A stretch of DNA of 37,484 bases from Actinomycetes bacterium. Its GTDB lineage: Bacteria; Actinomycetota; Thermoleophilia; Gaiellales; F1-60-MAGs149. A program made the translations under genes and the position numbers. The notes beneath the pieces were generated by a model, which saw nothing but the letters and a program-made list of their open reading frames with translations, made no database searches and was not told the origin of the DNA. Positions within the stretch are counted from its first letter, which is position 1. Each line of letters opens with the position of its first letter. This document shows, in pieces, positions 15,826-29,947 of this stretch. The stretch covers positions 1 to 37,484 of the forward strand of contig JANYCN010000076.1 in assembly GCA_025360225.1 (NCBI GenBank), written 5' to 3'.

Positions 15826-16491
15826 CTAGACGCTCAGGAGGGTCGGGAAATTCCCGTCATCGATCGGGGAGGCCGGGGCGCGGCCGAACCCAGCGATGTC
15901 AGGGTTCTGGCGCCAGCCATGGTAGTGACGCAAGCTGACGGCATCGCCGCTGTTTCCCTCGATGGTGTCGAGGTCGTCGGCGGACGCCGCGACCACGATC
16001 CCGACGTGTTGGTGCACGAACGAGATCACGTCGCCTGGCGCAGGAACCCCCGCCAGCCGTGGGAGGAAGCGCTTGCGGGCGACGAACCATGCCTGAAGCG
16101 ATGGCGCCGATGCGATCCGCCAGCCATCCGCGCCGTCCGCGAAGGGCAGCCCAGCGCTGCGCCAGACCCAGGAGACGAAGTCCGCGCACCACGGCTCGGC
16201 GTGTCGCGCCGTGAAGCGGTCCACCCAGGCGCCTCGGTCGCGGCCCTCCTCGTGGATCCCGACATGAAGGAGCGCGCTGGCGATCGCGACGATCGACGCT
16301 GCATCGGCGCGTCGTCGGAACGCGGACAGCTCGTCCGTCCGAACTGGCGCCTGGGCGGCACGCCGAGGCGACTCAGCGGGGAACCGTGGCGTGATCGCAC
16401 GCGTGACGATGGTGGCAGCGAGGACCGTCATGACGCAGACGACGACGATCTCGACGGTTGCCTGGCCGCGCCGACGTGCCAGCCGGCTCAT
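15826..16491 (-). CDS. CHAP-domain hydrolase with pilin-like leader
   Basis: The 221-residue protein begins with a short basic leader ending RRRG, followed by QATVE and a hydrophobic helix (about 15-33). This is the layout of prepilin-peptidase substrates, with Glu at +5 after the Gly. The rest is a CHAP (NlpC/P60-like) domain: catalytic Cys102 in EPWCADFVSWVW, the PGDVISFV strand, His162 in QHVGIVV and Asn180 in EGNSG. CHAP domains cleave peptidoglycan peptide bonds. As last gene of the Tad operon, overlapping tadC by ATGA, it could open the wall for pilus passage; that role is inferred. Confidence 0.85.
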   Translation of the reverse strand: MSRLARRRGQATVEIVVVCVMTVLAATIVTRAITPRFPAESPRRAAQAPVRTDELSAFRRRADAASIVAIASALLHVGIHEEGRDRGAWVDRFTARHAEPWCADFVSWVWRSAGLPFADGADGWRIASAPSLQAWFVARKRFLPRLAGVPAPGDVISFVHQHVGIVVAASADDLDTIEGNSGDAVSLRHYHGWRQNPDIAGFGRAPASPIDDGNFPTLLSV

Positions 16492-17147
16492 GCGATCCCA
16501 CGCATCGACGCGATCACCGTGAGGACCTCGCTCCCGACGATCAACAACAGCGACGCCGGGGCCAGCAGACAGCCGATCACGAGCATCATCTTTGGACCTG
16601 CGGCTGCAGCTCGGAGGCGCGCATCTCGCGTGATCGCCTCCCGGGTGTCGTCAGCGAGCGTTCGTACCTCCGCCGCAAGCGGCGTGCCGAGCTCCTCCGA
16701 CGCTCGCACGAGGGCCGCGAGGGGACGCATCGCGGCGTCGTGACCGCCCGGCTGGCCAGGCCCTACGACGCTCCGTAACCCCGTCGCGAGCGGCTCGTCC
16801 GAGCGGCGAGCGACCGCCTCGATCGCGGCAGCGGTCGGTGCGCCACCGTCGAGAACGGAGCTGAGAAGCTGCAACGCCTGGGGAAGCTGACGCCGCAAGG
16901 TTCGGGCGCGTTGGGCAGCGCGCCCCTTTCGACGGGCAGCCGAGTTGATACACCCGGCCGCGAACGACGGAACGGCACAGGTGAGGGCCGGTTCTGCGCC
17001 GAACAGCGTTCCGACGGTCACCACGAACGCGATCGCCACCCACAGTCCGTCGCGGCGGCACCCCGGTTCAACGATGACCTTCCACGAGAGCGCCAGGCTT
17101 GCGACGCCCAGGGGGAGGCCAGCTGCAAGCGTCGCGACGGCCATCAC
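16488..17147 (-). CDS. tadC: Tad pilus inner-membrane platform protein TadC
   Basis: The 219-residue protein of the type II secretion F family has N-terminal membrane helices (about 5-25 and 34-65), a basic cytosolic region with LRRQLPQALQLLSSVLDGG and LVRASEELGTPLAAEVRTLADD, and a C-terminal helix pair (about 184-210). Such proteins anchor the TadA ATPase at the membrane. It is shorter than typical TadC (about 300). GTG start overlaps the tadB stop; its end overlaps the CHAP gene. TadB and TadC are told apart by order. Confidence 0.85.
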   Translation of the reverse strand: MMAVATLAAGLPLGVASLALSWKVIVEPGCRRDGLWVAIAFVVTVGTLFGAEPALTCAVPSFAAGCINSAARRKGRAAQRARTLRRQLPQALQLLSSVLDGGAPTAAAIEAVARRSDEPLATGLRSVVGPGQPGGHDAAMRPLAALVRASEELGTPLAAEVRTLADDTREAITRDARLRAAAAGPKMMLVIGCLLAPASLLLIVGSEVLTVIASMRGIA

Positions 17148-17695
17148 CTGATGGCGTGCACGATGCGGTGCATCGCGATCAACGCGACGAGGGTGAGCAC
17201 GCCGCTCGCGGCGACGATCGCACGGCCGGCGCCTGTCAGAACGAGCGGCGCCAGGAGTTGCCGATCCGCGAGCCCCTCGAGCGCGAGCGCGGCGATCGGC
17301 AGGCCCGGGACGACCCTACCGGCGAACCGCGCCTGTGCCGTCGCCACACGCGCATCCCCGGCAAGACGCTCTTCCGCTGCAAGCCCCTCCGCGAGGGAGC
17401 GTAGAGCGGCGGAGAGGTCGCCACCGAGCTCGGCATGCAGCTCGACGGCGGCGATCAAGGCGCGGCCGCCTTCGACATCGGCGAATGCCGCGAGCGCGTC
17501 GCCAGGAAGGTGTCCGGCGTTGGCCAGCTCGGCGGCCCGGCGTAGCCGGGCGGCGACAGGCTCGGGAACGACGTCCACGGAGCGGTCGAGCGCGACCGCG
17601 AACGGGAGCCCCGCCGCATAGCAACGCCCGATGGCGCGAGCGACGTCGGGCATCGCCGACTCGACATCGCGACGGTCGCGACGCTTGCGGTTCAC
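17144..17695 (-). CDS. tadB: Tad pilus inner-membrane platform protein TadB
   Basis: The 183-residue protein contains the F-domain core (SAMPDVARAIGRCYAAGLPFAVALDR; ELHAELGGDLSAALRSLAEGL) and two C-terminal membrane helices (about 125-148 and 158-178). Typical TadB has about 300 residues and an N-terminal membrane pair, which is absent here, so this is a reduced form rather than an obvious truncation: the frame is intact and the GTG overlaps the tadA stop. It pairs with TadC as platform. Confidence 0.83.
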   Translation of the reverse strand: MNRKRRDRRDVESAMPDVARAIGRCYAAGLPFAVALDRSVDVVPEPVAARLRRAAELANAGHLPGDALAAFADVEGGRALIAAVELHAELGGDLSAALRSLAEGLAAEERLAGDARVATAQARFAGRVVPGLPIAALALEGLADRQLLAPLVLTGAGRAIVAASGVLTLVALIAMHRIVHAIR

Positions 17696-18654
17696 GCTCG
17701 ACTCGCGATCAGGTCGTTCAGGGCGGAGGGCGATCCGATTCGCCAGCCACCTGCGATCGCCTCGACGGTCGCGATGTCGGTCACCCGACGCCTGCCATCC
17801 GGCCAGCGCTGCTGGTGCACGACGACGTGGATGGCGCCAGCGATGCTCTCGCGCACGGCCTGGTGGGGGATGTCAAGGCCGCCCATCAAGGCCATCGTCT
17901 CGAGCCGTCGGACGGCATCTGCTGGACCGTTGGCGTGCACGGTTGCCATCGATCCATCGTGCCCGGTGTTCATCGCGAGCAGGAGGTCAAGCGCCTCACC
18001 ACCGCGCACCTCGCCAACGATGATGCGGTCGGGTCGCATCCGCAGCGCGTTCCGGATCAACGCGCGAAGGTCGATCGCGCCGCGCCCCTCTACCGAGGGT
18101 GGACGGGCTTCCAGTCGCACGACGTGCGGCACGGGAAGCTGCAGCTCGGCTGCGTCCTCGACCGTGACGATCCGCTCCTCGGGACGCGCGAACGCGGTCA
18201 GGGCGGCGAGCGTCGTGGTCTTTCCAGAGCTGGTACCGCCCGAGACGATCACGTTCAGCCGCCCCCGCACGATCGCTTCGAGGAGCGCGGCCTGCTCCGG
18301 CGTGACGGTCCCGAGCCGTACCAGATCGGCGGCAACCAGGCGACGAGCGCCGAAGCGCCGAACGGTGAGCGCCGGGCCGTCGACCGCGAGCGGCGGCAGG
18401 ACCGCGTTCACGCGTGACCCGTCCGGCAGTCGAGCGTCGACGAGCGGCGTCGCGTCGTCGATTCGCCGCCCGCAAAGGCCAACGAGACGCACGATCGCCT
18501 GGCGGAGATCTGCTGCGTCTCGGAACTCGACCGGTGATCGTTGCAGCCGCCCACCAACCTCGACGTAGACGCTTCGCGGGCCGTTCACAAGGACCTCGGT
18601 GACCCGAGAGTCGGCGAACAGGGTCGCCAGCGGTTCCGGTACGCCGACGTTCAT
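17692..18654 (-). CDS. tadA: Tad pilus secretion ATPase TadA/CpaF
   Basis: The 320-residue VirB11-like ATPase powers pilus assembly at the cytoplasmic face. The Walker A motif GGTSSGKTT lies at 139-147. The Asp-box/Walker B region RMRPDRIIVGEVRGGEALDLL and the His-box THANG-like segment MATVHANGP follow. The N-terminal domain is short compared with usual CpaF (450 or more), lacking the disordered head. ATG overlaps the tadZ TGA, and the stop overlaps tadB. Confidence 0.95.
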   Translation of the reverse strand: MNVGVPEPLATLFADSRVTEVLVNGPRSVYVEVGGRLQRSPVEFRDAADLRQAIVRLVGLCGRRIDDATPLVDARLPDGSRVNAVLPPLAVDGPALTVRRFGARRLVAADLVRLGTVTPEQAALLEAIVRGRLNVIVSGGTSSGKTTTLAALTAFARPEERIVTVEDAAELQLPVPHVVRLEARPPSVEGRGAIDLRALIRNALRMRPDRIIVGEVRGGEALDLLLAMNTGHDGSMATVHANGPADAVRRLETMALMGGLDIPHQAVRESIAGAIHVVVHQQRWPDGRRRVTDIATVEAIAGGWRIGSPSALNDLIASRA

Positions 18655-19682
18655 CGCCCCCCCTCGACGACGGCGCGGAGCCGACGCGATACGGCGCTTC
18701 GTGGGCGCGGCGACGCGAGTGTTGCGCGCCGCATTCGCGGCACGACGACGGCATGCCCGACGCTACCTCTCCCGCGTTCGAGCCCGAGCGCCGCGAACGG
18801 TGCGACGTCGTTCAGGACGAGATGCGGCGTGAAGCGCTCCGCGCCGATGCGGGAGAGGAAGGCTGCGTGGTCGACGGCGAGAGCGTGGTGGCGCGCACCG
18901 CGACGGAGAACGACGACGGCTGCGTCCGCCTCGCGGATCACCTCGATCGCAGGGCCGACTGCACGACCGATGTCGACGACGACCGTCGGGTACCGCTCGG
19001 CCGCGGCGCGTACGAGCTCACCCGCGATCCCCTCTCGCACGAGCCAGGCAAGGTCGGGGCGACGAGGCGACGCGAGCACCGCTCCCCACTCGACATCGAC
19101 GGCGAGCCGCTGCCAGGCACGCCGGCCCGCAGTCTCGCCTGCAAGCCCCGCGGCGGTCACGGGAACGGTCACTCCGGCGAGCTCGCCGACGTCGCCGCCA
19201 AGGAGGTCGAGGTCAAGAAGCGCAGCAGGCGCCGTGCTGGCGCGCGCAAGGAGGTACGCGATCGACGAGGTGCCGACTCCGCCGACGGCGCCGGAGACGA
19301 CAATCACGTGTCCCCGGCGGGCGTGCGGGTCGAGGAGCGTGGAGAAGGCCGCGGCGGTGCGCACCGCGTCAACGAGGGCGAACGGATCGAGCGGGCGGCC
19401 GACCGTGCCGCGCGCGCCGGCGCCCATCGCGGCCGTGACAGCAGCGATCGACGGTGCTCCGTCAAGCACCAGGACGACCGGGACGGTTGCCGAGAGCTCG
19501 CGGCATCGGTCGAGCGCCGACCGTTCGGCGTCGCCCGCCACGAGGAGCACGTCCGGGATCGCCAGCGGTGATCGCGCGAGCTCGATCCCGTCTGCCTCGC
19601 CAATGGCGTCGCCGATCTCGCGCTCGAGGAGCGTCGCACCACCAACGATGTTGACGATGATCGGCCGATCGGAGCTCATCAT
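18651..19682 (-). CDS. tadZ: TadZ/CpaE-like pilus localisation protein
   Basis: The 343-residue protein has an atypical receiver-like domain (about 8-110) without clear phosphorylation residues. A MinD/ParA-type domain follows from about 120, with a loop SGAVGGVGTSSIA. This lacks both the deviant signature Lys (KGG is VGG) and the usual P-loop Lys. ALLDLDLLGGDVGEL corresponds to the switch region. TadZ proteins mark the site of pilus assembly. ATPase activity is doubtful here. It overlaps cpaB and tadA. Confidence 0.87.
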   Translation of the reverse strand: MMSSDRPIIVNIVGGATLLEREIGDAIGEADGIELARSPLAIPDVLLVAGDAERSALDRCRELSATVPVVLVLDGAPSIAAVTAAMGAGARGTVGRPLDPFALVDAVRTAAAFSTLLDPHARRGHVIVVSGAVGGVGTSSIAYLLARASTAPAALLDLDLLGGDVGELAGVTVPVTAAGLAGETAGRRAWQRLAVDVEWGAVLASPRRPDLAWLVREGIAGELVRAAAERYPTVVVDIGRAVGPAIEVIREADAAVVVLRRGARHHALAVDHAAFLSRIGAERFTPHLVLNDVAPFAALGLERGRGSVGHAVVVPRMRRATLASPRPRSAVSRRLRAVVEGGR

Positions 19683-20269
19683 CCCGCACCCCGTGGCAGG
19701 AGGCGAACATCGCGTCCGGCGGACTCGGCGAGCGACAGCGTCTGGGCGTCGCGCGCCCGGAGACGGAGCGCAACCGCCCAGCCACCGCCATCGGAGATCC
19801 GCGTCGGCCGCCCGAGCACCGTCGCGCCGTCAATCCTCTGCGCATCGACGTTTGCTCCGCCGATCATCACGTCAACGACGACGCCGGGTTCAAGGAGCCC
19901 AGGGAGACCGGAGACCTCATCGACGCGAACGCCAACAGCTCGCTCCGACGGCCGCACCAGCGGCACGCGGCCAGGCTCTCTGAGCAACGAGGCGACGAGC
20001 GGGAGGCCGTGCGGGATCGCGACGGCAGCCTCTCGGAAGGCAACCAGATCGAGCCGACCGATCGCGCCGTCCGGAACGAGGTTGGAGAGGTGGGCGACGG
20101 TGACGTTCGCCGGATCGATCGTCCCACCGGCCGGAACGGCGCGGACGAGGATCAGCACGGGTCGGCCAGATGCTGGGTGCGCGTCACCGGCCGGGACGTT
20201 CCCGCCACGCGCGAGCAGGAGCGCGAGCACGGCAGCGACGACAAGCCCTATCGCTCCGACGCGGGTCAC
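19679..20269 (-). CDS. cpaB: CpaB/RcpC-like SAF-domain pilus protein
   Basis: The 196-residue protein has an N-terminal membrane anchor (about 3-22) followed by an extracytoplasmic SAF domain beginning RPVLILVRAVPAGGTIDPANV and a second conserved part with AVGVRVDEVSGLPGLLEPGVVVDVMI, characteristic of CpaB/RcpC. In diderms these link to the secretin; no secretin gene is present here, as in monoderm Tad systems. GTG 20269 overlaps the kinase stop (GTGA) and gives the expected short N-terminus. Confidence 0.88.
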   Translation of the reverse strand: MTRVGAIGLVVAAVLALLLARGGNVPAGDAHPASGRPVLILVRAVPAGGTIDPANVTVAHLSNLVPDGAIGRLDLVAFREAAVAIPHGLPLVASLLREPGRVPLVRPSERAVGVRVDEVSGLPGLLEPGVVVDVMIGGANVDAQRIDGATVLGRPTRISDGGGWAVALRLRARDAQTLSLAESAGRDVRLLPRGAG

Positions 20270-21543
20270 GTCGCCACCGCCACGACAGGCACGGGAATGC
20301 GCACACACGCACAGGTGCCGCCCTCGGAGCGTGGGGCGAGCGAGAACGTGCCACCGTGCGCCGCGACGAGCTCGGCGACGATCGCCAGTCCAAGCCCCGT
20401 CCCGCCTCCCTCGCCGTGCTCGAACGGTCGCATCAGGTGGTCGACGCGTGCCGGATCGATGCCGACGCCGGTGTCCTCAACCAGCAGGTCGACGCCGGTG
20501 GCGTCGTGGCGAGCCCGGATCGTTACCGAGCCGGCTTCAGGAGTGTGACGGATGGCGTTCGTCGCGAGGTTCGTTAGGACCTGCGCAAGGCGCCGGCGGT
20601 CGCCGTGCACTCGAGCTCCGGAGGGGCACTCCGCCCGCACGACGACGCCGCGCTCACCCGCGATCGGACGGACGCGCTCCTCGACCTCGTCGAGCAGAGC
20701 GTCGACGTCGACCGGCGCAAGCGTGACGCGGAGCGCGCCAGCTCCAGCCTGCGAGAGCGTGAGGAGGTCGTCCACGAGCGATGTCAGCCGGTCGGTCTCA
20801 CGACCGATCGCCACGAGCCGCCGGCGATCTTCCGGGAGGGCCGCGCCACGCTCGAGGGTGTACGCGTAGCCCTTGATCACGGTGAGCGGCGTGCGCAGGT
20901 CGTGGGAGACCTTTGCGATGAACGCCGAGCGCGCCTGTTCGAGCGCGCCGAGCCGGCGCGCCATCCGGTCGACGTCCGTGCCGAGGCGGGCGAGCTCGTC
21001 TGATCCGCGAAGCTCGGCCCTCGCCTCGAAGTCCCCGTCTGCGACCTGTCGCGCGACGTCTGCGACACGTCCCAGCCGGCGAGCGTACGAGGCGCCCGCC
21101 CACAGCGCCCACCCCATCGTGCCGGTCAAGACGAGCACGAGGGAGATCACGAGCCCGACGCGTTCTTGCCGCTCGATCGCACCAGCACGACGATCGTCGA
21201 CGATCACGAGCCCGCCGGCCGCCGATCCGTGGATCGCGATCACGCGACGCCCGTCAACGACCACCCGGTGATATCGGGGGACTCCACGACCGATCAGATC
21301 GGCCGCGCTCGGCACGCCCGGCGCGATCGCACCGACGTCGCTCACCCGCCGCGTACCGACCGGAAGGGGAGCCTCCGCTGACAGGAGAGCCTCGAGCGCA
21401 GCCGTCCGCTCAACGTCGACGACGTGTTGCCGATCGACGATCCGGTTCACCGGCAGCACAACGAACGCGCCAAGCGCCGCACCGAGGGTGACGGCGACGG
21501 CGGCGACCGCGAGCACGAGACGGTTGGCGAGAGCGCCGCGCAT
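20266..21543 (-). CDS. Sensor histidine kinase in the Tad operon
   Basis: The 425-residue membrane kinase has helices at about 8-32 and 129-150 enclosing an outer sensor region, a HAMP domain (about 150-203), H-box VSHDLRTPLT with phospho-accepting His214, N-box NLATNAIRHTP, and G-boxes DTGVGID and GTGLGLAIV. The start ATG overlaps the regulator stop (TAATG) and avoids a longer frame inside the regulator. It is co-transcribed with its partner regulator and the tad genes, so it probably controls or senses pilus state. The signal is unknown. Confidence 0.93.
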   Translation of the reverse strand: MRGALANRLVLAVAAVAVTLGAALGAFVVLPVNRIVDRQHVVDVERTAALEALLSAEAPLPVGTRRVSDVGAIAPGVPSAADLIGRGVPRYHRVVVDGRRVIAIHGSAAGGLVIVDDRRAGAIERQERVGLVISLVLVLTGTMGWALWAGASYARRLGRVADVARQVADGDFEARAELRGSDELARLGTDVDRMARRLGALEQARSAFIAKVSHDLRTPLTVIKGYAYTLERGAALPEDRRRLVAIGRETDRLTSLVDDLLTLSQAGAGALRVTLAPVDVDALLDEVEERVRPIAGERGVVVRAECPSGARVHGDRRRLAQVLTNLATNAIRHTPEAGSVTIRARHDATGVDLLVEDTGVGIDPARVDHLMRPFEHGEGGGTGLGLAIVAELVAAHGGTFSLAPRSEGGTCACVRIPVPVVAVAT

Positions 21544-22238
21544 TAGGCTCCGGCAACGAGGCTGTAGCCGATGCCCCACCGGTTGATGACGAAGCGCGAG
21601 CTCGGGTCGATGTCCTCAAGCCGTCGCCGAAGCCGTGAGGCATGCGAGTCCAGCGTGCGCGTCGTGCTGGCGTCGCGGTAGCCCCACACGCGTTCAAGCA
21701 GCTCCTGCTTGGCGTAAACCCGTTCCGGATCGCGCGCGAGCGCGCTGAGCAGGTCGAACTCCTTGGCCGGAAGGGCCAGATCGACGCCTGCAACGCGAAC
21801 GGTACGTCGCGTCATGTCGATGCAGATCGGCCCGACTGAGAGCTGCTCAACGCGACGGGTTCCGGACACCCGCGCTGCGAGGGCGTTGATGCGTCCGAGC
21901 AGCTCCGGGTAGTGAAACGGCTTCGTCACGTAATCATCTGCCCCACGCTGGAACCCACGAACCCGGTCCTGCTCCTCGGCGCGCGCCGTCAGCATGATCA
22001 CGCCAACGTCCGGGTCACCGGCGTCGCCTTCGCGGATTCGTCGGCACAGCTCGAAGCCGGAGCCATCCGGCAGACCGACGTCGATCAGCGTGATGTCAGG
22101 GCGCACCTCGGCGAGCAGGAGCGCCCCCTGCGCGAGCGACGAGGCGCCGACCACACGGTGGTCATCCATCCGCAGGTTGTCGGCGAGGAACTCGAGGATC
22201 GCTGGCTCATCCTCGATCACGAGCAGGCTGACGCCCAT
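21543..22238 (-). CDS. OmpR-family response regulator heading the Tad operon
   Basis: The 231-residue regulator has an N-terminal receiver (acidic pair at 10-11, phospho-acceptor Asp53 in LIDVGLPDG, TKPF lysine near 106) and a C-terminal winged helix with LPAKEFDLLSALARDP, QELLERVWGY and RWGIGYSL. It is first gene of an operon running to 15826. A Shine-Dalgarno-like GGGAG lies upstream of the ATG, and a promoter with an embedded palindrome is seen about 80 bases upstream, so it may regulate its own operon. Confidence 0.94.
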   Translation of the reverse strand: MGVSLLVIEDEPAILEFLADNLRMDDHRVVGASSLAQGALLLAEVRPDITLIDVGLPDGSGFELCRRIREGDAGDPDVGVIMLTARAEEQDRVRGFQRGADDYVTKPFHYPELLGRINALAARVSGTRRVEQLSVGPICIDMTRRTVRVAGVDLALPAKEFDLLSALARDPERVYAKQELLERVWGYRDASTTRTLDSHASRLRRRLEDIDPSSRFVINRWGIGYSLVAGA

Positions 22239-22518: not shown

Positions 22519-24207
22519 TCAGCGTGCAGCGACGGCGCGGTTCACGCCGACGACGATCGCGCGCAGCGAGGCGGTGAGGATGTTCGAGTGGATGCCGCAA
22601 CCCCAGGTCGTCGTCGTGCCGGCGTCGACCTCGACGAAGGCCGCTGCCGTCGCATCCTCGCCGCCGCTCATCGCGTGCTCGTGGTAGGACCGAACGCGAA
22701 CGCGCACGCCGACCTCTGCGAGAGCGTCGCAGAAGGCCGCGATCGGGCCGTTCCCGCTCCCCGAGACCTCGTGGCGCTCCCCGTTCAGCTCCAGGACGAC
22801 CGCGATCCGGTCGGCCTCGTCGTCCTCCTCGGCGGACTGAAGGCCATAGCGGACGAGCCGGAGCGGCGCAGCCGGGTCGACGAACGCAGAACGGAACTCC
22901 TCGAGCAGCCGCTCACCCGCCACCTCCCCGCCCTCACGGTCGGTGATCCCCTGCACCGCTCGCCCAAACTCGACCTGCAGCCCGCGTGGTAGCTCGAGGT
23001 GGTGCTCTGACGCCATCAACCACGCCGCCCCACCCTTGCCGGACTGCGAGTTGACGCGGATGATCGCCTCGTACGAGCGCCCGACGTCAGCCGGGTCGAT
23101 CGGCAGGTACGGCACCTCCCAGGCGGCGTCGTTCGCCTCCTGCGCGCGAGCGTCCATTCCCTTCTTGATGGCGTCCTGGTGGCTTCCCGAGAAGGCCGTG
23201 TAGACGAGGTCACCGACGTACGGGTGGCGCGGGTGGATCGGGAGCTCGGTGACCTCCTCGCAGGTCAGCCGGACATCGTCGATCGACGACAGGTCGAGCC
23301 CCGGATCAACGCCCTGGCTCATGAGGTTGAGGGCCATCGTGACGAGGTCGACGTTGCCCGTGCGCTCGCCGTTCCCAAAGAGGGTGCCCTCTACGCGGTC
23401 AGCCCCTGCGAGCAACGCAAGCTCTGCCGCGGCGACGGCCGTTCCGCGATCGTTGTGCGGATGGACGGAGACGATCGTCGCTGAACGGCGAGACAGGTTC
23501 CGGCACATCCACTCGATCTGGTCGGCGTGAACGTTCGGCGTTGCCGACTCGACGGTCGCCGGGAGGTTCAGGATCAGCGGCCGCTCGGGGGTTGGTTCGA
23601 AGACGTCCGTGACGGCCTCGCAGACCTCGAGGGCGTAGTCAAGCTCGGTCAAACAGAACGTCTCCGGCGAGTACTCGAATCGCACGTCCGTGCCCGTCGC
23701 CTCGAGCCCTGGCGCGAGCTCGCTGCAGTAGAGGGCGCCATCCGTCGCGATCCGCTTGATGCCATCGCGATCGAGCCGGAAGACGAGCCGGCGCTGCGCC
23801 TCGTTCGTCGAGTTGTAGAGGTGGACGATCGCCTTGCGCGCACCCCGCAAGCTCTCGAACGTGCGCCCAATCAGGTCCTTTCGCGCCTGCGTGAGGACCA
23901 TCAGCGTGACGTTCTCCGGCACGCGATCGTTGTCGATCAGGAAGCGGATGAAGTCGAAGTCAGCCTTCGACGCGGCCGGGAAACCAACCTCGATCTCCCT
24001 GAATCCGACCTGAAGCAGCATCTCGAACAGGCGAAGCTTGCGCCCCAGATCCATCGGGTTGACGAGCGCCTGGTTGCCGTCGCGCAGGTCGACCGACACC
24101 CACACCGGCGCTCGCGTTAGCGTCCGCCCTGGCCACGCCCGATCGCGGAGCTCGACAGGGGGGAACGGTCGATACTTGTGCGCAGGCATCGCCGGCATGG
24201 CCGTCAC
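22519..24207 (-). CDS. leuA: 2-isopropylmalate synthase
   Basis: The 562-residue protein is the first enzyme of leucine synthesis; it condenses acetyl-CoA with 2-ketoisovalerate. The N-terminus PAHKYRPFPPVELRDRAWPG is typical of actinobacterial LeuA. The catalytic barrel shows VDLRDGNQAL, EVGFPAAS and the metal-ligand HPHNDRG. The C-terminal allosteric leucine-binding domain (about 435-562) is present. GTG 24207 overlaps the DUF192 stop (GTGA); ATG codons four and seven codons later are alternatives. No attenuator or T-box is seen. Confidence 0.96.
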   Translation of the reverse strand: MTAMPAMPAHKYRPFPPVELRDRAWPGRTLTRAPVWVSVDLRDGNQALVNPMDLGRKLRLFEMLLQVGFREIEVGFPAASKADFDFIRFLIDNDRVPENVTLMVLTQARKDLIGRTFESLRGARKAIVHLYNSTNEAQRRLVFRLDRDGIKRIATDGALYCSELAPGLEATGTDVRFEYSPETFCLTELDYALEVCEAVTDVFEPTPERPLILNLPATVESATPNVHADQIEWMCRNLSRRSATIVSVHPHNDRGTAVAAAELALLAGADRVEGTLFGNGERTGNVDLVTMALNLMSQGVDPGLDLSSIDDVRLTCEEVTELPIHPRHPYVGDLVYTAFSGSHQDAIKKGMDARAQEANDAAWEVPYLPIDPADVGRSYEAIIRVNSQSGKGGAAWLMASEHHLELPRGLQVEFGRAVQGITDREGGEVAGERLLEEFRSAFVDPAAPLRLVRYGLQSAEEDDEADRIAVVLELNGERHEVSGSGNGPIAAFCDALAEVGVRVRVRSYHEHAMSGGEDATAAAFVEVDAGTTTTWGCGIHSNILTASLRAIVVGVNRAVAAR

Positions 24208-24548
24208 GCTACCACGAGGGTGACGCCAACCTCGATGCCAAGCCGCTGGGCCTCGCCGGCACCGATCTCCAGGATCCGACGAGCACCGCGCGCGCGGGCG
24301 ATGCGCCACGGTCGGAGGTGACGGGCGACACGCACGACCCGAAGGTCGTCGGTGAGGAACACCGCGTCGATCGCAAACCGCATGAACAGCATGTGAATCA
24401 TCCCGGTTGGGTCGCTCAAGAGAAGCCCTTCGCCCGGCTCGAGACCGTCACGCCCGAGCAGCCCGCGGGCGTTGCCCCGTTCGAACGATCCGGAGACGGT
24501 GACGTTGTCAAGCAGCACGAGGCCGCCCGAGTCTAGGATGCGCGCCAT
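24204..24548 (-). CDS. DUF192 family protein
   Basis: The 114-residue protein shows the DUF192 pattern: RGNARGLLGRDGL, a segment GLLLSDPTGMIHMLFMRFAIDAVFL, and the C-terminal RPWRIARARGARRILEIGAG. No lipobox or signal peptide is present with this start. The function of the family is unsettled. A longer upstream frame would overlap the divergent gene, so ATG 24548 is chosen; GAGACT stands six bases before it. It overlaps leuA and is probably co-transcribed. Confidence 0.88.
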   Translation of the reverse strand: MARILDSGGLVLLDNVTVSGSFERGNARGLLGRDGLEPGEGLLLSDPTGMIHMLFMRFAIDAVFLTDDLRVVRVARHLRPWRIARARGARRILEIGAGEAQRLGIEVGVTLVVA

Positions 24549-24554
24549 TCCCGG

Positions 24555-24582
24555 AGTCTCGCAGGGCGCCGGGCCGTAGACT
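24555..24582. promoter_or_regulatory. Back-to-back -10 boxes for divergent genes
   Basis: On the minus strand GAGACT (24560-24555) precedes ATG 24548 by six bases. On the plus strand TAGACT (24577-24582) precedes GTG 24591 by eight. The 42-base gap between the two genes has no room for long leaders, so both may be leaderless. The minus-strand box is a weak match. Confidence 0.35.
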
Positions 24583-24590
24583 TCGGTCCG

Positions 24591-24980
24591 GTGGCCGAGC
24601 CGCTGTACCGAAGCGGGGACGACGTGACGATCGAGCACGCCGGACTGCGGTACGCGTTCGCGATCGATGACCTCACCGTGCGTGTCCGCGAGGCAGCGCG
24701 TACCCTCCATCTCGATCGGTTGCCGCCGTCACACCTCGTCGAGCTGCTGGTCACCGGCGACGACCCCGACCACGTCGTCCCGTCAGAGAGGATCGACGAC
24801 GTGGTCTACTGGCTCCGGAAGCTCGTGTTCCGCTCGGCCTGGCATGACGTCCGCATCGAGGCCGGCCTGCTCGACACGTCGTTCGATGAACGCTCCGGCG
24901 CGTTTCGGCACCAGTACGGGGGACACGACCTTCCGCCCGCGCTCGCACCACCACCTGCCAGCCTGACCGAGGAGGCCTGA
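24591..24980 (+). CDS. Hypothetical protein, 129 residues
   Basis: This is a soluble acidic protein with no signal or membrane segment. It has a compact region about 10-100 rich in hydrophobic and charged alternation (HLVELLVTGDDPDHVV, ERIDDVVYWLRKLVF). It ends in a Pro-rich tail (HDLPPALAPPPAS). No family is recognised. The start GTG follows a TAGACT -10-like box; an internal GTG at about 24624 is possible. It is divergent from DUF192-leuA and 93 bases before the next plus-strand gene. Confidence 0.7.
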   Translation: MAEPLYRSGDDVTIEHAGLRYAFAIDDLTVRVREAARTLHLDRLPPSHLVELLVTGDDPDHVVPSERIDDVVYWLRKLVFRSAWHDVRIEAGLLDTSFDERSGAFRHQYGGHDLPPALAPPPASLTEEA

Positions 24981-25616: not shown

Positions 25617-26393
25617 ATGCGTCCAAGTCATGGGCAGGCGGTGGTCGAACACCTCGGCGTGGTGATCTGCGTGGCGTCCTTGATGCTCGCCACGGTCGCC
25701 GTCGCACGGCACACCTCGCTCGCAGACGCCGTCCGCTCAGCGCTGCTCGGTGATCCACCAGCACCCCGCCTCCTGCCAGAGGAGACGGCGCTAACGATGA
25801 CCGCCCTCCGGGGAGGCGATGGCGCGCCACGTGTTGACGACACCGTCGCCCTCATCGCGTCGCGGGTCGGCGAGGCGACGGCTGAGCGCCTCGTCGCCTT
25901 GCTCGCCTACGAGACGTACGCAGCAGCGACGCTCGGTCGGGCGAACGACGAGTCAGAGGTGCCAACCGGTCTCGGCAGCGCGCGAGTCGTCTCGCGCAGG
26001 GACGAGCTGGCGGCGGTCAGCCGCCTCGACCGCGCGAGCCGAAAGAACGCGAGGATGAACGTCGCGCTCGACGCGGCGGCGATCGGCGCCGGCGTCGCGA
26101 GCGCTGGGGTCGGCCTCGTCGCCGGCGGCGTGGCGGTCCTGCTGCAGAGCAGCACCGGCGACGCCATCCTTCCGGCAGGTGCCGAGGCAGGGGACGTCGA
26201 GGTCTGCCTGCCGATCGTCTGGCGCAGCACCGCCAAGCAGCCGCGGCGCGTCGCCCCGGCGACGCTCGTTGCCGGCGGCACCCCGGACGTCTACCGCGAT
26301 CGCCTGCGCGCCATCCCGGCAGCGCTCGTCGTGGTCTTCCGCCGCGGCCGGGCGATCGACCGTCGCGTCGCCGCATTCCGGGGCTGCAGGTGA
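25617..26393 (+). CDS. Pilin-leader membrane protein, paralogue 1
   Basis: The 258-residue protein has a seven-residue leader RPSHG-QAVVE with Gly at -1 and Glu at +5, followed by a hydrophobic helix (about 14-30), as in Tad pseudopilins. The middle (about 40-150) is soluble. A second hydrophobic glycine-rich stretch (about 150-178) leads to a C-terminal module: LPAGAEAGDVEVC with one Cys near 200, and a final CR with the second Cys. The same module ends the next protein. It is probably exported and attached to the pilus machinery, with the two Cys forming a disulfide; no named family is recognised. Confidence 0.78.
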   Translation: MRPSHGQAVVEHLGVVICVASLMLATVAVARHTSLADAVRSALLGDPPAPRLLPEETALTMTALRGGDGAPRVDDTVALIASRVGEATAERLVALLAYETYAAATLGRANDESEVPTGLGSARVVSRRDELAAVSRLDRASRKNARMNVALDAAAIGAGVASAGVGLVAGGVAVLLQSSTGDAILPAGAEAGDVEVCLPIVWRSTAKQPRRVAPATLVAGGTPDVYRDRLRAIPAALVVVFRRGRAIDRRVAAFRGCR

Positions 26394-27184
26394 TCGACCG
26401 CCGCGGCCAGGCCTCCGTCGAGGGTCTCGCTCTCTGGGCCGTTGTCGCCGCAGGAGCCGCCGCGGCGGCAGCAGCGATCGCGTCGTCGTCACTCCCAGCC
26501 GCGATCGTCGACGCAGTGCGCAGCGCGATCGTCGGCGCTCCGTCGGATCGTGGAACGGAAGTTCTCGATGGCGCCCTGAAGCCGGGAGGCCCGTCTCTGC
26601 TTCTCGTGCGAACGCGGCTCCGCCTTCGGCTCGGCGAGGTCGCGGCGACCGAGCTGCTGCGCGCCGCGGTGGAGCAGGTCGTCAATGGGAGCGAACGTCA
26701 GCAGGGCTCTCTCGACGTGACCGCCCTCGTCGGTGGCAAGAACCCTCACATCCGGCTGATCGCGACAGCCACGGGCCCGCTGCGACTCGTCGGGATCGCC
26801 AGCGATGAGGCCCTTCCCGACCCGATCGGCATCTCTCTCTCGCCGACGACCGTCGTCGGCGGAGTGATCGCTGCGTCGGTGCACGCGTCCGGTCACGGGC
26901 GGGTCGTCGAGGTTGTCGGGGCCTCGTTGCGAGAAGGGACGGCGATCGCCGGGCATGCGTGGACGGCTGTCGGGATCGTGTCGGACATGATCGTCACTGC
27001 CGCGGGCCTCCCGCCCGGTGCCCGCGCAGGCGATGCGACGCTCTGCCGGCCGGTCGACATCCGCTGGGTCGCCTACGGCCGCCCCTACCGTCGCCCGACC
27101 GCCGAGGGGCACGAGCTCGTGATCGTTCGCAACGGCGTCGTCGTCGCGCGCTACGTTCCAGCGGTCGAAGGGCCCTGCACGTAG
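26390..27184 (+). CDS. Pilin-leader membrane protein, paralogue 2
   Basis: The 264-residue protein starts with a short leader MIDRRG followed by QASVE (Glu at +5) and a long Ala-rich helix (about 12-36). The middle is a predicted soluble domain. The C-terminal module LPPGARAGDATLC, then an R-rich stretch and a terminal CT, matches the preceding protein, so the two are paralogues with diverged centres. Its GTG overlaps the previous stop (GTGA), so they are co-translated. It is likely a minor pilin or pseudopilin (TadE/F-like role), by inference. Confidence 0.78.
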   Translation: MIDRRGQASVEGLALWAVVAAGAAAAAAAIASSSLPAAIVDAVRSAIVGAPSDRGTEVLDGALKPGGPSLLLVRTRLRLRLGEVAATELLRAAVEQVVNGSERQQGSLDVTALVGGKNPHIRLIATATGPLRLVGIASDEALPDPIGISLSPTTVVGGVIAASVHASGHGRVVEVVGASLREGTAIAGHAWTAVGIVSDMIVTAAGLPPGARAGDATLCRPVDIRWVAYGRPYRRPTAEGHELVIVRNGVVVARYVPAVEGPCT

Positions 27185-27493: not shown

Positions 27494-27691
27494 TCAGTGG
27501 TGGCCGACGACGCTTCGCACGGCGCTCGTGAAGCCGTTCGCGATCTCCTTCGCGACGCCGGCGCCACCCTTCAGCTGCGTCATCACCGCAAGCAGCAACG
27601 CCGCGACGGCGAGAAGCAAGCCAAGGTACTCGACCGTGCCCTGCCCTCCCTGTCGTCGGATCCTGCGGCAGAGCCGGTGGATCTCTTCCAC
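27494..27691 (-). CDS. Flp-type major pilin precursor
   Basis: The 65-residue precursor has a basic leader of about 15 residues (RLCRRIRRQGG) ending in Gly. QGTVE follows with Glu at +5, then the hydrophobic helix YLGLLLAVAALLLAVM and a short tail. Size, leader, Glu+5 and the following Tyr are hallmarks of Flp pilins cleaved by TadV. GTG 27691 has the strong Shine-Dalgarno GGGAGG four bases away; a longer frame to 27730 lacks this. It lies 122 bases downstream of a histidine kinase gene and probably forms the pilus fibre. Confidence 0.87.
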   Translation of the reverse strand: MEEIHRLCRRIRRQGGQGTVEYLGLLLAVAALLLAVMTQLKGGAGVAKEIANGFTSAVRSVVGHH

Positions 27692-27743
27692 GGTGCCTCC
27701 CTCGGTTCGGCGACCGTGCTGGTCGCACACCGATCGTCGCGCG

Positions 27744-27813: not shown

Positions 27814-29271
27814 TCAGACGGGCGTGACGAGCGGACCGGGTTGTCGAACCGGCTCGCGCGGAAGCTCGCAACCGAACAGGGCACCGCCCTCAACGGCATC
27901 ACCCACGGTCACCCTCCCGCCCATCGCCAGAGCGAGCTCGGAGGCGATGGCGAGCCCAAGGCCCGTCCCGCGCGCGTCCTCCGAGTAGAACGGACGGAAC
28001 ACGTCCGCGCGCCGGTTCAACGGCACGCCAGGGCCCGCGTCGGCGACCTCGAAGCGGACAGCGCGCAGCCCGGCGCTCGCGGACACGCGGACAACGCTAT
28101 GAGGCGGTGACCAGCGAACGGCGTTGTCGAGCATGTTCGCGAGGATCTGAAGGATCCGGTCGCCATCGCCAACGACGACACCGAGCGCGTCGCCAGCGAG
28201 CTGGATCTCGACGCCCTTCTTCCGGGCGCCGCCGAGCGCCGCGGCCACGCCACGGTCGAGAAGCACGTCGAGGTCCACGTCGTCGGACACGAGGGAGAAC
28301 CGACGACCTTCCAGCTTCGCGAGATCAAGGATGTCTCGGATGAGCCGCTCGAGACGCCTCGCCTCGGCCTCGATGATCGCGAACGATGTCGCCGGCTCGT
28401 CGACGATCTCGTCGAGCAGCGCGCCGATGTGACCCTGAATCGACGTAAGCGGTGTCCGTAGCTCATGGGAGACACGCATCAGGAAGAGCCGCTCGTGCTC
28501 CCGCGCGGCCTGGAGCTGGTCTGCCATGTCGGCGAAAGCACGGTTGAGGACGCCGAGCTCGTCACGTCGTCGCCGATCGAGGGTGACCTCGAAGCGTCCG
28601 CGCGCGACGGCGTTCGCCGCGACGACGAGGCGGCGGATCGGCGAGGTGAGCCGCACGCCGAGAAGGAGCCCGAACACGGCCGCCACGGCGAGGCCGACCT
28701 CGAACGCGGGCGCGAGGCGCGCGGCCCAGAAGCGTTGCTCCGGGGCGAGCCCGGACAGCGGGCGGGCGAGGACGATGGCGCCAATCGCATCCTGCTCGCC
28801 CGTCGGGGTAGACCGGTTGTCGCGCGTGAAGAACACGCCGGCGGCGACGACGAGCGCTGGCTGACGCGCGCCAGGCGGCGTCGCGACGGTGGAGAGCGTC
28901 GCACCAGAGTCGATCGCGCCCCAGTCCAGCGCGAGGCCGTCCCAGACCGGGACGTTCCCGCCCGGATACGGGAACCGGGTAGCAGGGTTCGCGACGTAGA
29001 AGATGTCGGCAGCGGTCACCTGGGTCACGTCGTCGGAGAACAGGACGGGCTTCCCGGTCTCAAGGAAGAACCGCCGCGCGCTCTTCGCGAACAGCCGTGC
29101 GACGCCTGGAGCCTGCGCGCGGAGCGTCGCCTCGGTGGCGCTGCGCTCGTACGCCGTCACGGTACGGGTCGTCAGGACCAGCGCGAGGGCGCCCGACGCG
29201 ATCACCGGCAGCGCGACGAAGGTGATGAGACGGAGACGCAGCCCGAACGAGGCCCTACGACGATGGCGCAT
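27814..29271 (-). CDS. Sensor histidine kinase (second system)
   Basis: The 485-residue membrane kinase has helices at about 11-34 and 187-207 with a 150-residue outer sensor region, HAMP, H-box VSHELRTPLT with His269, N-box NMLDNAVRWSPP, and G-boxes DAGPGVP and GTGLGLAIASEL. ATG 29271 overlaps the regulator by 17 bases with AAGGT upstream; a longer frame is less likely. It partners the regulator just upstream, and the Flp pilin gene lies downstream on the same strand. Confidence 0.93.
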   Translation of the reverse strand: MRHRRRASFGLRLRLITFVALPVIASGALALVLTTRTVTAYERSATEATLRAQAPGVARLFAKSARRFFLETGKPVLFSDDVTQVTAADIFYVANPATRFPYPGGNVPVWDGLALDWGAIDSGATLSTVATPPGARQPALVVAAGVFFTRDNRSTPTGEQDAIGAIVLARPLSGLAPEQRFWAARLAPAFEVGLAVAAVFGLLLGVRLTSPIRRLVVAANAVARGRFEVTLDRRRRDELGVLNRAFADMADQLQAAREHERLFLMRVSHELRTPLTSIQGHIGALLDEIVDEPATSFAIIEAEARRLERLIRDILDLAKLEGRRFSLVSDDVDLDVLLDRGVAAALGGARKKGVEIQLAGDALGVVVGDGDRILQILANMLDNAVRWSPPHSVVRVSASAGLRAVRFEVADAGPGVPLNRRADVFRPFYSEDARGTGLGLAIASELALAMGGRVTVGDAVEGGALFGCELPREPVRQPGPLVTPV

Positions 29272-29947
29272 CGTCGGCGACCTTGTACCCGACGCCCCAG
29301 ACGGTGACGATGCCGCACGCCTCACCGACCTTGCGCCGGACCTGTCGCACGTGAACGTCCACGGTGCGCGTATCGCCGGCGAAGGTGTATCCCCAGACGC
29401 GCTCGAGCAACTGGTCGCGCGACAGGACGAGCCCGCGGTGCTCGACGAGCGCGTAGAGGAGGTCGAACTCCTTCGGGGCGAGCGCGATCTCCGCGCCGTC
29501 GACCGTCACCTCGCGTCGCGGTGCATCGATGCGCAGCCGCCCGTAGCTCAGCGTCGTCCGCTCGCTCGACGGCGGCGGTGGCGCAGAGACACGCCGGAGG
29601 ATCGTCTTGATCCGCGCCACGAGCTCACGTGGATTGAACGGCTTCGTCACGTAGTCGTCCGCGCCAACCTCGAGGCCGACGATCTTATCGATGTCGTCGT
29701 CGCGTGCCGTGAGCATCACCATCGGCACGTTCGAGGTTGCACGGACGCGCCGGCACACCTCCAGCCCATCCATGTCGGGGAGGTTCAGGTCGAGGAGCAC
29801 GAGAGCCGCACCGCTCGTCGTCGCGGCTACGACCCCGGCGGCTCCTGTCGTAACGTGCTCGACGCTGAAGCCAGCCTTCTCGAGGTACAGCCGCACGAAC
29901 GAGGCGATGTTCTCCTCGTCCTCGACGATCAGGATCCGATCAGCCAC
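29255..29947 (-). CDS. OmpR-family response regulator (second system)
   Basis: The 230-residue regulator has a receiver with phospho-acceptor Asp53 (LLDLNLPDMDG), the TARDDD segment and KPF lysine, then a winged helix with LAPKEFDLLYALVEHRG, RDQLLERVWGY and TVDVHVRQVRRK. All key residues are present. GTG 29947 follows TACGAT by six bases with no Shine-Dalgarno, so the mRNA may be leaderless. It forms a pair with the kinase downstream. Confidence 0.95.
   Translation of the reverse strand: MADRILIVEDEENIASFVRLYLEKAGFSVEHVTTGAAGVVAATTSGAALVLLDLNLPDMDGLEVCRRVRATSNVPMVMLTARDDDIDKIVGLEVGADDYVTKPFNPRELVARIKTILRRVSAPPPPSSERTTLSYGRLRIDAPRREVTVDGAEIALAPKEFDLLYALVEHRGLVLSRDQLLERVWGYTFAGDTRTVDVHVRQVRRKVGEACGIVTVWGVGYKVADDAPSS

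Follow-up and report, generated by a model that had tools for sequence, protein, structure and literature searches.

What do two adjacent genes for large prepilin-leader proteins contribute to the Tad/Flp pilus locus in which they lie? We addressed this question for genes A and B of a 37,484-nt stretch of DNA from a Gaiellales genome (contig JANYCN010000076.1), referred to here as the window, in which the genes of a Tad machine are found within the same 12 kb as the pair (Table 1). The two reading frames share 4 nt, GTGA, in which A stops and B starts, and the pair is convergent with a Flp-like pilin gene (RRQGGQGTVEYLGLLLAVAALLLAV) 310 nt downstream, in agreement with a preliminary description of the region, which had called A and B coupled and convergent with Flp. 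We consider it probable that the two proteins are a co-evolved heterodimer of large type IV-like minor pilins, acting in the Flp/Tad pilus of the same locus either at the tip or in the initiation complex.

Table 1. Position of genes A and B, their C-terminal modules and the surrounding Tad locus in the window.
Feature	Position	Strand	Remarks
Gene A	25617..26393	+	large prepilin-leader protein, 258 aa, ATG start
Gene B	26390..27184	+	paralogue of A, 264 aa, GTG start
C-terminal Cys module of A	26157..26390	+	profile match E 3.7e-15
C-terminal Cys module of B	26996..27178	+	profile match E 4.7e-21
Flp-like major pilin, 78 aa, GQGTVEYLGLLLAVAALLL	27494..27730	-	convergent with the A/B pair; weak Class_IIIsignal match only in Pfam
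Histidine kinase (27814-29325) and response regulator (29255-29947)	27814..29947	-	conserved, adjoining Flp
Coiled-coil-like protein, 162 aa	25071..25559	+	conserved neighbour of A
Conserved 129-aa protein, no family assigned	24591..24980	+	locus neighbour; Pfam search without match
DUF192 protein	24204..24710	-	conserved neighbour
Second histidine kinase/response regulator pair	20266..22238	-	conserved in the Tad locus
RcpC/CpaB	19679..20308	-	
CpaE/Ssd-like P-loop protein	18651..19682	-	
TadA ATPase	17692..18654	-	
TadB (T2SSF)	17144..17695	-	
TadC (T2SSF)	16488..17147	-	
Prepilin leader fused to a CHAP peptidoglycan-hydrolase domain	15826..16491	-	

Both proteins begin with a short, basic leader and a prepilin-type site, with cleavage predicted after G6 (MRPSHG/QAVVEHLG in A and MIDRRG/QASVEGLA in B), ahead of a hydrophobic helix of about 20 residues. 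These leaders, already recognized in the preliminary description, are conserved in the relatives: Q+1 and E+5 are invariant in alignments of 17 and 20 members and at least 90% conserved in an alignment of 25, while the glycine before the cleavage point is mostly kept and is replaced by alanine in some B proteins. At the other end, A closes with LPAGAEAGDVEVC...GCR and B with LPPGARAGDATLC...PCT, and both share an LPxGAxAGDxxxC...C module; the last cysteine, previously described as terminal, is in fact penultimate in both window proteins. The module cysteines are Cys197 and Cys257 in A and Cys219 and Cys263 in B, and A has a further cysteine, Cys18, within the leader helix. Outside that helix, all 25 A/B proteins, which range from about 235 to 300 aa and are larger than TadE/F, have exactly two cysteines, one in GDxxxC and one at or near the C-terminus.

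Compared directly, A and B of the window align by BLASTP only in one short segment of 29 columns (E 0.001). Profile-profile alignment of the two families runs from the leader to the C-terminus (E 3.8e-25, 242 columns), confirming that they are paralogues. The centres do differ, as had been noted, but this homology over the whole length makes them divergent homologues and not unrelated sequences. Since reading frames, leaders and the cysteine pair are also conserved in the relatives, the likeness of A and B is not due to chance. In a tree of the 25 sequences, the A proteins form one clade and the B proteins another (support 97/94), which points to one duplication before the radiation of the family, with both products retained together. 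The module genes are adjacent as a pair wherever the contig allows, with an overlap that in the relatives is mostly 17 nt (stop codon counted), and in one genome, G007, the pair is duplicated as a unit. This joint retention, together with the duplication of the whole pair, suggests that an A-B complex is obligatory.

Searches of Pfam, NCBIfam and PHROGs gave nothing significant for A and B, the few NCBIfam and Pfam matches concerning one member each and unrelated families, and none of the 25 proteins matched PF07811 (TadE) or PF13400 (Tad) at E 0.1. Searches of the PDB by sequence and by fold, the latter with models of both proteins, likewise returned no significant match and no known pilin; the fold matches leaned weakly towards NTF2/VirB8-like structures (E 0.13 at best), which serves as a lead only. 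The module therefore stands as a new conserved one, as had been proposed: it recurs in other Tad loci and matches no known unrelated domain, the two points on which that proposal had been staked.

The AlphaFold2 models (20 sequences) were of moderate confidence, with pLDDT 77.0 and pTM 0.64 for A and pLDDT 71.8 and pTM 0.58 for B. An N-terminal helix is predicted at residues 5-32 and 6-31 in the two models. Further helices extend as far as residue 105 or so; beyond them come a small beta hairpin, a segment of poor prediction and finally the C-terminal strands. A classical pilin fold was not recognized in either model. The cysteines are placed on or flanking the C-terminal strands, and with an even pair in each chain an intramolecular bond is the simplest arrangement; the models thus suggest that the two extracytoplasmic cysteines of each module most likely form an intramolecular disulfide. 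Alternatively, in proteins with the same role as pilins, the two cysteines could join A to B by an interchain bond, or serve as a binding site for a metal or ligand. Such an arrangement would suit the presence of both cysteines in each protein and the constant pairing of the genes, but the even pair per chain, modeled on or close to the C-terminal strands, favors closure within each protein, and we regard the alternative as unlikely.

To define the family, adjacent pairs located by single-sequence searches in the same GTDB family were used to build profiles (A1 for A, A2 and A5 for B, A3 and A4 for both). The C-terminal module is present in 13 of the 16 genomes of this family, including the window's own (12 of 15 relatives), and in one further family genome the A gene is cut by a contig end. 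The most distant pair, that of G001, was matched at E 3e-25 and 8e-19 by a profile built without it. Across 399 genomes of the class, the C-terminal profile gave 27 matches at E <=4e-15, all in this family, the next best (4e-4) being noise. Across 396 genomes of the phylum, drawn without the other members of the family and covering the rest of the phylum only as sampled, the window's own genome alone scored convincingly. The full-length profile also matches many class members outside the family, almost only through the leader. Within the genomes sampled, the A/B module is therefore confined to one GTDB family; a C-terminal profile search, suggested earlier as a way to find co-occurrence with tad genes across actinobacteria, does recover the module in other Tad loci, but not as a general component of actinobacterial ones.

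A single-sequence scan of GTDB contigs found no direct relatives, and an alignment-based scan found 10 loci. Five early single-sequence matches (L009, L011-L013 and L019) were discarded as chance matches inside other genes. The named records that carry the locus are Thermoleophilia, Gaiellales or Actinomycetota MAGs. One record titled Bifidobacterium breve (L098, contig CAMAWJ010000004.1) has a locus about 90% identical to those of Thermoleophilia MAGs and is probably mislabelled.

In the relatives with readable flanks, the pair is syntenic with Tad genes. Convergence with a GQGTVEY Flp gene was seen at 12 loci from 11 genomes, window included. In the window and in G003, G013 and G015, response regulator, histidine kinase and Flp genes face B, A, the coiled-coil-like gene and the 129-aa gene, and a second block holds DUF192, response regulator, histidine kinase, (RcpC), CpaE, TadA, TadB, TadC and the CHAP pilin; the window departs from this order in having leuA between the two halves of the locus. 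In G001, the pair lies upstream of tadE, rcpC, cpaE and tadA, all on one strand. Between the window and G003, identity is 36% for A, 33% for B and 75% for TadA, A and B being the least conserved proteins of the locus, as expected of surface-exposed parts.

Several neighbours deserve separate mention. The coiled-coil-like protein ends in RRIRISVQTDP; its gene and that of the 129-aa protein, neither with a convincing family assignment, are conserved next to DUF192 in the Tad loci of several of the order's families. The CHAP gene follows tadC, is kept in the relatives and is followed in the window by a thioredoxin gene. Its product has the leader RRGQATVEIVV and conserves Cys102, His162 and Glu178/Asn180; a literature search for work joining a prepilin leader to a CHAP wall hydrolase found nothing. 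Directed by a pilin leader, such a wall hydrolase may serve to open the peptidoglycan and let the pilus through.

In a TadA tree, the window TadA, those of ten sampled genomes of genus g3, G003:C30 and G001:C362 form one clade (100/100), and a second, canonical Tad type, apart in the same tree, is also present in the window's genome and in G003, where the canonical locus has its own Flp and TadE. The window TadA best matches TIGR03819 (TadA family) and the CpaE-like protein TIGR03815 (Ssd/CpaE homologue), both below the curated cut-offs. Relative to actinobacterial Tad loci of the TIGR03819/TIGR03815 kind, the A/B pair, the CHAP pilin, DUF192 and the two-component genes are additional and lineage-specific. 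In two sister families, f2 and f4, related Tad loci retain DUF192 and further neighbours and have no A/B pair; in G027 a long gene in the coil position comes directly after Flp. A and B therefore do not belong to the core of that machine.

Taken together, the leaders, the linkage to Tad genes, the pairing, the fast divergence and the presence of an A24 prepilin peptidase (G000:C7 in the window's genome, E 1.8e-16; 12 of the 16 family genomes) argue for minor pilins with exposed heads. Against this reading stand the missing match to any known pilin in sequence or fold, the moderate confidence of the models, the alanine before the cleavage point of some B proteins and the lack of the pair in the sister families. 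Like A and B, the TadE, TadF and TadG proteins of PF07811 and PF13400 have a prepilin leader with Glu+5 and a single N-terminal helix, and each system encodes two or more such paralogues alongside Flp and the Tad machine. A and B differ from TadE/F in their length, in the new two-cysteine module and in falling outside both Pfam families, and TadE/G-like proteins have separate genes of their own in these genomes.

In the Kil pilus of Myxococcus, minor pilins encoded side by side and bearing additional domains make up interchangeable tips and are required for polymerization; the complexes cap Tad pili, and disulfides are predicted in them (PMC12075869). KilL, KilM and KilN share with A and B the adjacency of their genes, enlarged extracytoplasmic domains without a PDB match and the link to a Flp major pilin (PMC12075869), and A and B thus show the Kil-type trait of adjacent minor pilins with enlarged heads in a Tad system. 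They differ in being two proteins of similar size, not three, and no sequence relation to the Kil proteins was found. In Streptococcus sanguinis, PilB and the PilA/PilC complex offer a pilin helix with an extra functional domain and a minor-pilin pair (PMC8179133, PMC9934059), in Gram-positive type IV pili of another class than that of A and B and with no sequence relation found.

In the actinobacterium Micrococcus luteus, TadE and TadF are needed for display of Flp and were not detected in sheared pili, which leaves room for a basal role (PMC4322843). On the model of the basal complex proposed there (PMC4322843), A and B would be pseudopilins of a wall-spanning or basal assembly that guides Flp through the wall, and not subunits of filament or tip. 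The actinobacterial host, with its presumably thick wall, and the prepilin-leader CHAP hydrolase in the same locus would accord with such a role; the greater size of A and B compared with TadE/F, their position as the fastest-evolving proteins of the locus and the small TadE/G-like genes elsewhere in these genomes speak against it. Weighing the Kil precedent against the absence of TadE/F from M. luteus pili, we prefer a heterodimeric tip or initiation complex and hold the basal complex, its first rival, to be improbable.

The leader might also be a mere membrane anchor or sorting signal, making A and B bitopic surface proteins that are encoded with the pilus and stay outside it. Within the class, the same leader does occur on unrelated larger cargo, namely the CHAP domain, a conserved protein of about 300 aa and proteins of 400-460 aa. 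However, the linkage of A and B with Flp and the Tad genes is tight and conserved in almost all genomes with the pair, and both proteins conserve Glu+5, a residue tied to pilin assembly and not to anchoring; we regard this reading as improbable. A further idea, not supported, is that A and B simply replace TadE/F/G: it appealed initially in that none of the 13 genus g3 genomes shows a TadE above cut-off or more than one Tad ATPase, but small TadE/G-like leader genes lie near uvrC in several of them (weak PF13400 matches) and TadE adjoins the pair in G001. Short genes of this kind upstream of uvrC in genus g3 (L174, L175 and L177) score at or near the family cut-offs.

Two further prepilin-leader proteins were observed in the class. 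One, of about 290-310 aa with the motifs YWxYYPxS, DDWE and GSHAG, is encoded on contig C79 of the window's genome (L072, 8799-9788, minus strand) and recurs beyond this family within the class (L085, L086, L088, L093 and L094); the L072 copy has no Pfam match, and we presume a resemblance to Vps62-like proteins. The other, of about 200 aa, comes from another family of the class, where its gene immediately precedes Flp in tandem (L080, L081, L083, L084, L091 and L095), and is a candidate for a different minor pilin without the cysteine module.

For A and B as minor pilins of a tip or initiation complex, we infer the following course of events. The A24 peptidase of the genome would cut the leader after Gly(-1), and the hydrophobic N-terminal helix, with Glu at +5, would take the proteins into the TadA/B/C assembly platform. 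The exported part would consist of a helical segment and then the beta-rich C-terminal module, each module being closed by its putative intramolecular disulfide. A beside B, as a heterodimer, would cap or prime the thin Flp filament, with a surface-exposed head turned to the environment that may serve in contact, possibly as an adhesin.

Minor pilins decide the contacts of a Tad pilus, and their role in actinobacterial Tad pili is hardly known. The A/B proteins are an undescribed family, confined to one bacterial family, and offer a compact test system of one major pilin and two genes, with two cysteines in each product, in a clearly bounded Tad locus. They belong to a class that reuses the prepilin leader for several large cargo domains. 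More speculatively, and with considerable doubt, a disulfide-stabilized A-B tip whose head fold lies outside Pfam and the PDB, combined with the CHAP hydrolase, would amount to a wall-cutting, contact-making Tad pilus peculiar to this lineage.
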